Positions 20,343 through 23,927 of a stretch of 39,941 nucleotides of DNA are shown in pieces. The position numbers were made by a program, and so were the translations under genes. Under the pieces are notes generated by a model that was given only the letters and a program-made list of their open reading frames with translations, made no database searches and had not been told where the DNA came from. Source of the DNA: a virus; the IMG/VR virus record IMGVR_UViG_3300038696_000046, positions 1-39,941 of that record; one strand, written 5' to 3'. How positions within the stretch are numbered: the first letter of the stretch is position 1; every line of letters starts with the position of its first letter.

Positions 20343-20358
20343 ATTGTGAATAGTGCAG

Positions 20359-20386
20359 ACTATAGACCATCTTTGGTCATTGTAAA
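20359..20386 (-). promoter_or_regulatory. Putative late promoter, leftward
   Basis: On the minus strand TTTACA (20386-20381) and TATAGT (20364-20359) are 16 nt apart, ahead of terS. The spacer contains the palindrome GACCATCTTTGGTC (20366-20379), which could be an operator. Transcription starting near 20352 would leave a very short leader for ATG 20342 and a normal one for ATG 20315. Confidence 0.5.
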
Positions 20387-20409
20387 ACTACTATCATTCA
20401 AACTTATAG

Positions 20410-20559
20410 AAAACACTGTACATTATTTAACCATTAGTTGATTTGAAGACTTCTCCATAAAGTAAGGGCAATGTATAGGTGAGCTATAAAAATAGCTTAG
20501 AATGCGATTCAGGGCGTTTTAGCACATTTTTACTTATACAGTGTTTTATACAGTGCTTT
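20410..20559. repeat. TACAGTG operator-like repeats
   Basis: AAAACACTGTA (20410-20420) is the exact inverse of TACAGTGTTTT (20537-20547). A third copy, TACAGTGCTTT, lies at 20549-20559. They flank the region upstream of the leftward promoter and may bind a regulator. Confidence 0.6.
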
Positions 20560-20579
20560 ACATACCAAAATGCGCCGTC

Positions 20580-20893
20580 GTCACAACATTTTTGTGACGT
20601 TTTGTGACACCGTCACAAAGTGTGACAACCACTGTCACACCACAAACGCCAGCAATATCATGCACTTACGCACAAAATGTGACAGTGTGACAGTGTGACA
20701 GTGAAAACGGAAAAACTTATATATAAATAAAAAAGGGGCTAGTACTACTTATCACTATTATTATTATTCTTTTATATATATATACTAATTACTGTCACAA
20801 ACGTCACAAACTACTCTAAACCCCTTGTTTTAATTGACTTTTTTCGTGTGACGTTTTCTGTGACAGTGCATTTTTTACTGTCACACTGTCACA
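20580..20893. repeat. Array of 15 TGTGAC/GTCACA repeats; candidate origin or operator
   Basis: Eight TGTGAC copies begin at 20593, 20603, 20621, 20678, 20686, 20694, 20847 and 20859. Seven GTCACA copies begin at 20580, 20612, 20634, 20794, 20803, 20880 and 20888. They include three tandem TGTGACAG units (20678-20701) and a 9-bp perfect inverted repeat (20859-20867/20876-20884). The copies form clusters on both sides of an AT-rich core. This is the design of an iteron origin, or of a many-site repressor region. About one copy would be expected by chance in this length. Confidence 0.85.
20707..20790. other. AT-rich core inside the TGTGAC array
   Basis: About 84 nt are mostly A and T, with runs such as TTATATATAAATAAAAAA and TATTATTATTATTC, lying between the two repeat clusters. 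It is a candidate DNA-unwinding element if the array is an origin. Confidence 0.6.
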
Positions 20894-20981
20894 AATGCGC
20901 CCATTCATCACTACGCCAACAGCTAAAAGCTAATACATATCAGGCACTTACACATAATTTTAAACTTTTTTAAATATCGTC

Positions 20982-21010
20982 TTGTATATACAATATAGAA
21001 CATCTATAAT
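20982..21010 (+). promoter_or_regulatory. Main rightward early promoter
   Basis: TTGTAT (20982-20987) and a perfect TATAAT (21005-21010) are 17 nt apart. Start of transcription would be near 21017, giving a leader of about 165 nt before the first gene. Confidence 0.7.
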
Positions 21011-21038
21011 GTTTTCAGTGGCGAGAAAACCCAAAAAT

Positions 21039-21057
21039 GACCAACTGGTCAACCAGT
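21039..21057 (+). promoter_or_regulatory. Overlapping palindromes upstream of boxA
   Basis: GACCAACTGGTC (21039-21050) and ACTGGTCAACCAGT (21044-21057) overlap in the leader. They could be an operator, or in RNA a boxB-like hairpin just ahead of boxA, the order used in rRNA leaders. The GACCA/TGGTC arms recur in the leftward promoter spacer. Confidence 0.6.
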
Positions 21058-21060
21058 CAC

Positions 21061-21075
21061 CGCTCTTTAACAATT
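21061..21075 (+). promoter_or_regulatory. boxA antitermination element
   Basis: CGCTCTTTAACAATT matches the boxA core (GCTCTTTAACA) of gammaproteobacterial rRNA leaders, where NusB and S10 bind the RNA. It lies about 45 nt into the early transcript. It predicts Nus-dependent, termination-resistant transcription of the early genes. Confidence 0.8.
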
Positions 21076-21112
21076 CGGATATAGTTTGCACCTTCGGCAG
21101 TGTTTCGAGGGT

Positions 21113-21153
21113 GTACGCTAAAGCGCATTAATAGCTAGTGTGCTTTATCGTAC
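21113..21153 (+). promoter_or_regulatory. Leader stem-loop before the first early gene
   Basis: Arms 21113-21127 and 21139-21153 pair in 13 of 15 positions around an 11-nt loop, ending 14 nt before the AGGA ribosome site. There is no T-run after it, so it is more likely an RNA stability or processing element than a terminator. Confidence 0.65.
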
Positions 21154-21182
21154 CAACAACCAACTATAGGACTACAAATACT

Positions 21183-21818
21183 ATGAGTAACTTTAATCGA
21201 GAAGATTGGCTACAACTAGCCGCAGAATTAATACAAAACGATATTATCAATCCTGCTGTTGAGCAATACCATGTAAGACTTGATAAGCCCATCGAAGACT
21301 TAAAAATAGCCGTATCCATCGGGCATCCCAAAGGCAAGCAGGCAATCGGCGAATGTTGGTCTACTGAAGCAAGCGAAGATAACACTACTAATCAAATCTT
21401 TATCACGCCGTTCAACAATGACAGCTTACGGGTACTGGACGTGCTAACACATGAGCTTATACATGCTTACTTAGATAACAGAGACGGTCACAAGGGCAGG
21501 TTTGCAACGCTAGCGCGTGCAGTTGACTTGCAGGGCAAACTCACCGCGACAACGGCGGGCGACAAACTCACCGCTAGTCTCAAAAGCATCGTTGAGATGC
21601 TAGGCGAGATACCGCACACAAAACTAGACCAAAACAAAGCACCAACCAAGAAACAAAAGGGGCGCATGGTTAAGATAGAATGTGAGCATAATTGCGGCAT
21701 GAAATTCAACACGTCACGCCTACAAATTCGTAACATGAACCCTGAATCATCGTGCATCGGATGCGGTAAACCTAGCGCCTATGCAGTTTCAATATTAACA
21801 GCTTTAGAGAATGAATAA
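21183..21818 (+). CDS. SprT-like zinc metalloprotease
   Basis: This 211-aa protein is expected to be a zinc peptidase of the SprT/Spartan type. It has HELIHAYLDNRDGHKGRF near residues 85-102, with the HExxH helix and a downstream His, and a C-terminal zinc ribbon with CEHNCG and CIGCGK. Cellular Spartan proteins cut proteins bound or crosslinked to DNA; phage members are little studied. The start is ATG 21183 behind AGGA, rather than the upstream in-frame GTG at 21138, which falls in the leader hairpin. It is the first early gene, followed after a palindrome by the AAA+ gene. Confidence 0.85.
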   Translation: MSNFNREDWLQLAAELIQNDIINPAVEQYHVRLDKPIEDLKIAVSIGHPKGKQAIGECWSTEASEDNTTNQIFITPFNNDSLRVLDVLTHELIHAYLDNRDGHKGRFATLARAVDLQGKLTATTAGDKLTASLKSIVEMLGEIPHTKLDQNKAPTKKQKGRMVKIECEHNCGMKFNTSRLQIRNMNPESSCIGCGKPSAYAVSILTALENE

Positions 21819-21858
21819 GGGTGTATATACACCCTAACCAACTAACCAACTAACCAAC
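21819..21858 (+). repeat. Intercistronic palindrome and TAACCAAC tandem leader
   Basis: GGGTGTATATACACCC (21819-21834) starts right after the SprT stop. Three exact tandem TAACCAAC units follow (21835-21858), then AGGA and the next ATG. This stop-palindrome-AC-leader layout recurs between the following genes. Confidence 0.85.
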
Positions 21859-21877
21859 CTATACAGGACGATAAAAC

Positions 21878-22990
21878 ATGAATTTAACAGCTATCAAAAT
21901 CACCCTTTTAAAAACGCATAACATACGTACAACGGGCATGAGCGACACTGAAATAAAAGATCTAGCAGTAAAGCACGGGCTACTTAATATCGACCGCTCA
22001 CCGCGAGAAGACGAACAACCACAAGACGAACAACCACAACCTCAACCTCAACTAAAGGAAAAAGCACCAATGAACGATAACAAAGCACTAGCCGAGCAAA
22101 TCGCCAATCTTATCAGTAACGCCGCGCCGAAAGCCCCTGAGATGGACGAGAATCGCATTATTGAGCTAATCAAGGCAAACACCCAAGAGCGCCCGCGCGA
22201 AGTCGTAGTGACCCCATATAACGCCCCTGATAAAGCGGTAAACGTAGGCGTTACTCATGAGATTTTCGATGAAGCATTACACTGGCTCTCGATGGGCAGT
22301 GATTTGTTTTTTTCAGGTGCTACGGGTACGGGTAAATCAACAACTGCAAAACAGATAGCGCAAGCGCTAAGCATGAATTTTTTCTCAATGGGTTCAATCA
22401 TGACTAAGTTTGAAACCCTTGGCAGTATGTTACCTGATGTGGGTTTTATCGAATCAGTTGTCTACAAGTGGTTAAACGCTAAAGATGGCGGCGTGCTTTG
22501 TATTGACGAGATAGACGCCAGTAACCCTAACGGCTTAACGTCCATAATGCCGATTTTTGACTTTGACGGTGAGGTCACATTCTTAAACGGTGAGACACTC
22601 AAACGCACAGATAAGCATCATATCATTATCACTGGTAATACGGACGGTGCAGGGGCTAACGCTGAGTACAACTCACGCCTTAAATTAGATGATGCATTTC
22701 GTTCGCGCTTTGTATTTATGCGCCATGATTACAACAAAGCGGTGGAAGATAGCATAGGGGGTAAAGATCTTGCGGACTACGCTAGAAAATTCAGAAACAC
22801 TTTGACAGAAAAACGCATCAAAGGTGCGATTGTTACGCCGCGCACTATCAAGGACGCACACAAGGCAATCAACAATGACAACGTACCGAAGTCACTACGT
22901 AAGAAGATGGTCGAACGAGTGTTTAAGCAAGCTATGAAAGATAATGATTACAAAGCTTTGATTAACAGTATCGGCGAGTATCAATTCTAA
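21878..22990 (+). CDS. AAA+ ATPase, CobS/MoxR-like
   Basis: This 370-aa protein has an N-terminal helical part with a Gln/Pro-rich linker (residues 45-65, repeated EQPQ), then an AAA_5-type ATPase. The Walker A is GATGTGKST (about 146-154), the Walker B is GVLCIDEID (about 205-213), a sensor strand is HIIITGNTDG, and an arginine-finger region is DDAFRSRFVF (about 271). The order and loops resemble CobS and MoxR proteins, which remodel partner proteins with VWA-domain subunits. The next gene is a plausible partner. It is not evidence for cobalamin synthesis. The leader is AC-rich with AGGA before ATG 21878. Confidence 0.85.
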   Translation: MNLTAIKITLLKTHNIRTTGMSDTEIKDLAVKHGLLNIDRSPREDEQPQDEQPQPQPQLKEKAPMNDNKALAEQIANLISNAAPKAPEMDENRIIELIKANTQERPREVVVTPYNAPDKAVNVGVTHEIFDEALHWLSMGSDLFFSGATGTGKSTTAKQIAQALSMNFFSMGSIMTKFETLGSMLPDVGFIESVVYKWLNAKDGGVLCIDEIDASNPNGLTSIMPIFDFDGEVTFLNGETLKRTDKHHIIITGNTDGAGANAEYNSRLKLDDAFRSRFVFMRHDYNKAVEDSIGGKDLADYARKFRNTLTEKRIKGAIVTPRTIKDAHKAINNDNVPKSLRKKMVERVFKQAMKDNDYKALINSIGEYQF

Positions 22991-22992
22991 AG

Positions 22993-23008
22993 GGGCGTAT
23001 AGACGCCC
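22993..23008 (+). repeat. Intercistronic hairpin GGGCGT-ATAG-ACGCCC
   Basis: A 6-bp stem with a 4-nt loop lies 2 nt after the AAA+ stop. No T-run follows; an AC-rich leader (CAACTAACTAACC) and AGGA come next. It is one of the repeated intercistronic elements. Confidence 0.75.
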
Positions 23009-23052
23009 TAACAACCTTAAACAACTAACTAACCCCATAGGACTAACTAAAC

Positions 23053-23919
23053 ATGAAACTACAAACAGCGAACGATACAAGCGCGATTTACTACGGTTTG
23101 CACGGCAAGCAAGCGCATTTTAAAACGATAGATGCATTCATTGAGTATAACGACAAGCAATACTGCCACAATTACGACACAAACAGCGATTGGACGATGC
23201 ATACACCCGCAAAAAAGCTCAAAGAAATGATTAAAAACCGCGATACCGACAGCAAAATATTTGACCAGTTACAAGGCAGTGAAAACCTAGACAACGTTGA
23301 CGGGTTAGACACGTTTAACTTAGAACCACGCGAACAACTCACACACGGAACCGACGGATTTTTATTCAATAGCGGGGCGTATTATGCGGGCGAACAAGAT
23401 TACATGCTAACAATAGAATCCAGACCCACCGAGTCACGCACAATATGGCTAGCATTAGATATTATTTCTCGCGGCAGTGTTGACGCTATGGCTATGACAC
23501 GGCGCGCTAGCGCGGTGATAAGAGCGGCGCGTACATTGCAAACGTGTGGGTATTCAGTCGGTTTAATTGCATACATTAACGGCATTCACTCGAACGGTAA
23601 TGCATTTGTATCGGTAGTAGTCAAAAACCCTGATGAAGACTTAAACGAAAACGTGCTAGCGAACACCCTAGCTCACCCTAGTTTTTTTCGCACGATAGGT
23701 CATAACGCCGTTGCTAAGTTGATGAAAGATAGTAACGGCTCGATGAATAGCGCCCCACGTGAAAAGGCGGTAATAGGGTTAAAGAACGCATTTGCACCCC
23801 ATGACCAGTTAACCGTGTTAGACGGCTCGTTTGATTTCACAGAATCAAAAACGGATGAAAGCATAAACGAATGGATAAATAATCAAATCGAAATAGCAAT
23901 AAAACAAGGGCGCTTATAA
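23053..23919 (+). CDS. AAA+ partner protein with possible VWA-like core
   Basis: This 288-aa protein is encoded just after the AAA+ gene, sharing its leader style. Residues 1-100 are charged. Residues about 125-190 read TIWLALDIISRGSVDA, then a helix (TRRASAVIRAARTLQ) and a strand (YSVGLIAYING), then FVSVVVKN. This strand-helix-strand order with an Asp after the first strand is like a VWA/Rossmann fold, but the DxSxS metal site is not intact. MoxR-type ATPases are commonly paired with VWA proteins, so it may be the adaptor. Similar phage proteins exist under domains of unknown function. Its last codons form half of a palindrome. The VWA idea is tentative. Confidence 0.5.
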   Translation: MKLQTANDTSAIYYGLHGKQAHFKTIDAFIEYNDKQYCHNYDTNSDWTMHTPAKKLKEMIKNRDTDSKIFDQLQGSENLDNVDGLDTFNLEPREQLTHGTDGFLFNSGAYYAGEQDYMLTIESRPTESRTIWLALDIISRGSVDAMAMTRRASAVIRAARTLQTCGYSVGLIAYINGIHSNGNAFVSVVVKNPDEDLNENVLANTLAHPSFFRTIGHNAVAKLMKDSNGSMNSAPREKAVIGLKNAFAPHDQLTVLDGSFDFTESKTDESINEWINNQIEIAIKQGRL

Positions 23920-23927
23920 GCGCCCTT
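23906..23927 (+). repeat. 22-bp perfect palindrome across a stop codon
   Basis: AAGGGCGCTTA and its inverse meet at the centre. The TAA stop of the partner-protein gene lies in the middle, so the palindrome encodes the last residues. It is followed by an AC-rich leader and AGGA. It is the strongest of the intercistronic hairpins. Confidence 0.9.

Follow-up and report, generated by a model that had tools for sequence, protein, structure and literature searches.

The question raised by this locus is what three adjacent phage genes do and which of them act together. The stretch of DNA analyzed here (the window) is a virus record of 39,941 bases that was studied at its full length. ORF calls in the window place the three genes exactly where the original prediction had them: a SprT-like metalloprotease of 211 residues at 21183–21818, an AAA+ ATPase of the MoxR/CobS/NorQ type of 370 residues at 21878–22990, and a DUF7192 protein of 288 residues at 23053–23919. 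All three lie on the plus strand, separated by intergenic gaps of 60–63 bp. The cluster, headed by the SprT-like gene, points rightward, and the genes for the terminase small subunit and the structural proteins lie behind it. Its position just after a divergent intergenic region (20343–21182, no strand assigned), which separates the terminase small-subunit gene on the minus strand from this early cassette on the plus strand, fits the earlier description of these as the first genes transcribed. Within the divergent region, TGTGACAGT repeats cluster in a TGTGACAGT/ACTGTCACA array at 20570–20893, and nine of the ten matches to TGTGACNGT in the whole window fall in 20609–20893, against a chance mean of 1.06 per window. 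The array could possibly represent origin iterons or operators.

The SprT-like ORF runs from an ATG at 21183 to the stop codon ending at 21818, with an alternative GTG start at 21138 that is likewise open. The protein matches phrog_6361 with E = 1.4e-29; its Pfam SprT-like score of 21.8 bits is under the cut-off of 25.6. Direct reading of the sequence reveals a zincin motif, HELIH...GHKGRF, in which the third ligand is present, and a four-cysteine ribbon, C-x3-C...C-x2-C. Annotated phage SprT-like proteases are about 41% identical over 90% of the window protein and share its family, its HExxH, and its GH..F motif. The identification of this gene product as an HExxH protease with a zinc ribbon thus holds. 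The 163 phage records that carry a SprT-like gene are mostly Arthrobacter and Microbacterium phages; in Reedo and similar phages, the relative is isolated among replication genes, and, unlike the window, Reedo has no detected AAA+–DUF7192 pair. The window protease may cleave DNA-bound or host proteins.

The second gene encodes an ATPase that scores 37.3 bits against Pfam AAA_5, above the cut-off, and matches phrog_249 with E = 1.3e-31. Alignment shows a Walker A motif (GATGTGKS), a Walker B motif (IDE), and retained sensor and arginine finger positions. A G-x-[YF]...GG segment precedes Walker B in the alignment and is suggestive, at most, of a helix-2 insert. Among solved structures, the best matches of a profile built from five related phage ATPases are midasin, CobS, and CbbQ/NorQ; the window sequence on its own gives weak matches to Clp-type AAA+ proteins only. 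By sequence, the window ATPase is assigned to the MoxR/CobS group (clade 7), in agreement with the motor type originally proposed.

A different role for this ATPase has been suggested from a related phage. LeBron gp128 is the AAA+ member of an AAA+–DUF7192 pair, with gp127 as its partner. Overexpression of gp128 in Mycobacterium smegmatis causes more than 3 logs of killing, placing it among the most toxic LeBron genes, and gp127 is absent from the toxic gene list (PMC13148394). The LeBron authors report an HHpred match of gp128 to MCM6 and propose DNA unwinding (PMC13148394). If so, the ATPase would be an MCM-like DNA helicase of the replisome, with DUF7192 as its loader or cofactor, and the weak Pfam MCM match of the window ATPase (E = 0.012) and the exonuclease and helicase genes downstream of the pair could be read the same way. 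However, similarity to MCM is expected from the AAA+ clade that these proteins share, and the ATPase profile favors midasin, CobS, and CbbQ/NorQ. In addition, relatives encode DnaB-like helicases, and the window has a primase/helicase-like protein (its largest ORF, of 820 residues, is primase-like). We therefore consider a replisome helicase very unlikely.

The third protein belongs to DUF7192 (PF23822), scoring 61 bits where the cut-off is 27. The family is absent from papers in the literature searched, and the window copy is a divergent member, at most about 24% identical to the relatives with which it was aligned. The original prediction had given this protein a Rossmann-like core and a possible von Willebrand factor A (VWA) fold, and structure prediction points the same way. 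The AlphaFold2 model of the window protein (pLDDT 76) has an α/β core, and its best PDB match in Foldseek is the VWA domain of NorD (E = 2.8e-4, probability 1.00). The model of a relative from locus L041 (pLDDT 90.6) also has the NorD VWA domain, from NorQ–NorD complexes, as its best PDB match (E = 3.5e-5, probability 1.00). These NorD matches have TM scores of about 0.3 and a large rmsd over the full alignments, with a shorter C-terminal half in DUF7192. In a library of viral structures, the top matches beyond DUF7192 proteins themselves are phage VWA/CobT-like proteins.

Profile comparisons give a fainter signal. With hhalign, DUF7192 matches three viral VWA proteins weakly (probability 5%, P = 0.008) in the expected register of VWA strand 1, helix 1, and strand 2; against HCTV-2 CobT alone, there is no match. 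A search for Pfam VWA in 39 DUF7192 members at E values up to 10 found none, the DUF7192 profile run against PDB sequences returned chance matches only, and DUF2201_N is absent from the nine phage records in which it was sought. The metal ion–dependent adhesion site (MIDAS) sequence DxSxS is degenerate in DUF7192, with N, D, or Q at the first position, S or N at the last, and no consensus. Taken at the level of the structural models, DUF7192 is a probable VWA-like partner of a MoxR/CobS-type AAA+ protein.

A further feature of the models bears on how such a partner could engage its motor. VWA proteins linked to MoxR ATPases, NorD included, carry a strand-stabilized finger that inserts into the pore of the AAA+ ring (PMC9976466, PMC13036017), and the finger-in-pore mechanism of NorQ–NorD has been published (PMC13036017). 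In the L041 model, two strands around a short helix stand directly N-terminal of VWA strand 1, forming a finger-like hairpin. Its tip, VDMGRF..GEPECM, is the best-conserved 18-residue stretch of DUF7192 (3.1 bits, compared with a mean of 1.6) and occupies the same place as the pore-entering finger of NorD. The fingertip of the window protein is degenerate, with GEQDYM instead of GEPECM, and retains mainly the glycines and the methionine. We infer that the DUF7192 fingertip would dock onto the AAA+ ring.

The resemblance to NorQ–NorD of Paracoccus thus extends from a MoxR-type AAA+ protein beside a VWA protein to a similarly placed finger-like hairpin, but DUF7192 proteins differ in their size of about 280 residues, in having no MIDAS, and in the lack of a large separate N-terminal adaptor domain. 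Tailed viruses also encode cobST pairs (PMC8651126), which in haloviruses, cyanophages, and the Gordonia phages GMA3 and GMA7 have an AAA_5 gene with one for a VWA protein nearby; in GMA3 and GMA7, the VWA gene directly follows the ATPase gene (L113:34261–37970 and L112:27950–31430). The viral CobT partners examined, in contrast, are 600–780 residues long and combine an N-terminal HExxH domain with an intact MIDAS (DxSGS); DUF7192 has neither feature.

These cobST pairs have been proposed as metabolic gene pairs (PMC8651126), which raises a second alternative: a viral cobaltochelatase in which the window pair is CobS–CobT and boosts host cobalamin synthesis. CobS does rank with the top structural matches of the AAA+ protein, and phrog_249 carries the database label "porphyrin biosynthesis." That label, however, stems from the CobS similarity of the AAA+ protein, and no functional test of such pairs was found in the literature. 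The partner argues against this role, as CobT_C similarity was sought in DUF7192 members and not found, and the window protein has only 288 residues and no MIDAS. A cobaltochelatase is, in our estimation, extremely improbable.

The AAA+ and DUF7192 genes are closely linked. Scanning viral contigs with the DUF7192 protein or the AAA+ protein of the window as single queries gave no match; an alignment of Vilmaviridae proteins used in the same way yielded 65 further loci, which were then analyzed by local HMM searches. In a non-redundant set of 52 DUF7192 genes, 47 have the AAA+ gene immediately upstream, at a median gap of 32 bp; each of the other five is an additional copy near a complete pair. 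AAA+–DUF7192 is a conserved pair that is widespread in phages, and linkage between motor and partner is near-universal. Named phages with the pair include Staphylococcus phage K, LeBron (Vilmaviridae), AM24, Tunturi_4, and the podovirus ct52p938; of these, LeBron and phage K lend themselves well to laboratory work. The families, their order, and a similar spacing are common to the window and to the DUF7192/phrog_1909 and phrog_249 genes of Vilmaviridae, Kayvirus, and others; the window differs in its divergent DUF7192 copy and in the SprT-like gene in front. In Rhizobium phage P106B, two small genes separate the AAA+ and DUF7192 genes. Gordonia phage Syleon, which has DUF7192 without a detected AAA+ protein, is an exception to the pairing; in the count of 52, a close relative stands in for it. 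Six loci in bacterial genome assemblies carry both families and are probably prophages. Matches to the AAA+ family come mostly from Staphylococcus, Mycobacterium, and Listeria phages, and a number of pair-bearing contigs are 37–40 kb long, as is the window.

Several pair-bearing contigs show further features. In the Vilmaviridae loci L003, L013, L016, and L017, a second DUF7192 copy lies some 4 kb past the pair; in L081 and L087, it follows the first copy closely. L013 (8835–9554) and L016 (8633–9352) also encode a phrog_4776 protein, two or three genes beyond their second copy. Its HExxH (HEKEH/HEREH) is probably due to chance, and its YRG...SWT pattern gives an impression, and only that, of ADP-ribosyltransferases. 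In a 76-kb phage contig, the pair is followed some 3 kb further on by an ArdA antirestriction gene (L070:5717–6295).

The protease does not show this linkage. No convincing match to SprT (phrog_6361/PF10263) was found in 11 phage records with DUF7192, and in about 70 related loci other than the window, a local profile search detected no SprT gene in the vicinity of the pair. Conversely, SprT-bearing phages mostly lack the pair; in Reedo, the one named phage of this group examined, neither DUF7192 nor phrog_249 was found. Phages with SprT and phages with the pair are different sets, and since SprT has no match near other pairs and Reedo has no pair, the trio is seen only in the window. HExxH-containing ORFs beside other pairs were considered as protease partners and rejected: they correspond to ArdA in L070, to phrog_4776, or to weak or no matches. 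A reading of SprT as a diverged version of the peptidase domain of viral CobT was likewise dismissed, as profile comparison gave no match.

This distribution weighs on the central proposal of the original prediction, a machine in which the SprT-like protease cuts proteins once the AAA+ protein and the VWA-like adaptor have unfolded or extracted them. The co-directional genes, their gaps of 60–63 bp, and the hairpin that follows each of them favor such an assembly. So does the occurrence in phages of MoxR and VWA together with an HExxH domain, in the form of a peptidase–VWA fusion: jumbo phages encode a MoxR ATPase alongside a metallopeptidase–VWA fusion protein (PMC7824862), and the GMA3, GMA7, and HCTV-2 proteins, which share an invariant HExxH N-terminal to an intact MIDAS, are metallopeptidase–VWA fusions. 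The jumbo phages of group 2.2 (PMC7824862) therefore resemble the window in combining motor, VWA, and metallopeptidase within one viral system, and the earlier remark that no system of this form had been described does not stand as worded. In the window, the peptidase is not fused to the VWA domain but is a separate SprT-family gene that has no conserved linkage to the pair. The adjacency confined to this one genome, the isolated SprT-like relatives of Reedo and others, and the failure of the fused peptidase domain to match the SprT profile all argue against a three-part machine, which we judge unlikely. Similarly doubtful is a scenario in which this phage has re-created a motor–VWA–metallopeptidase machine from three genes, with DUF7192 handing host or DNA-bound proteins remodeled by the AAA+ protein to the SprT-family protease early in infection. 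The protease is probably an independent accessory gene, co-directional with the pair.

The hairpins themselves are GC-rich, have no T tract, and occur at all three stop codons of the cluster (21818–21835, 22992–23009, and 23906–23927). The second, an intercistronic hairpin on the plus strand just past the AAA+ stop codon, has a 7-bp stem and a 4-nt loop. Hairpins at this stop codon are enriched among relatives (19 of 45, whereas random windows average 5.4) and often carry the stop codon in the loop; examples lie in loci L032–L085. Such hairpins may determine how much ATPase is made relative to adaptor.

Gene position also speaks to the substrate. For jumbo phages of group 2.2, the MoxR–VWA pair has been proposed to be a virion-assembly chaperone, with a precedent in tail assembly of an archaeal virus (PMC7824862). 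In the window and many relatives, however, the pair belongs to the early/replication arm, pointing away from the structural genes and not among late genes, and many contigs have PD-(D/E)XK exonuclease and DnaB-like helicase genes a few kilobases past it. An assembly chaperone is thus highly unlikely, and the place of the pair at the head of early/replication genes suggests a target among host or replication proteins rather than in the virion.

Overall, we favor as the probable explanation a minimal MoxR–VWA remodeling pair that lacks a MIDAS and is expressed with early genes, accompanied by a separate, co-directional SprT-like accessory protease. The AAA+ and DUF7192 proteins would form a two-component remodeling machine of the MoxR–VWA kind. 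As its family suggests, the AAA+ protein would assemble into a ring, the pore of which would be plugged by the finger-like hairpin of DUF7192 as the NorD finger plugs NorQ, a proposal drawn from the model, the conservation, and the homologue structure. The target could be bound by the VWA-like body, with its degenerate metal site, or by the N-terminal part of DUF7192, and ATP-driven movement of the adaptor would strain or open it. The SprT-like protease would be a separate accessory gene inserted ahead of the pair in the phage lineage of the window. If this explanation is correct, DUF7192 gains a testable role in a pair found in phages of Staphylococcus, Mycobacterium, Acinetobacter, and Rhizobium and in many uncultured phages, the "porphyrin biosynthesis" label would be corrected, and the potent toxicity of LeBron gp128 would be explained.
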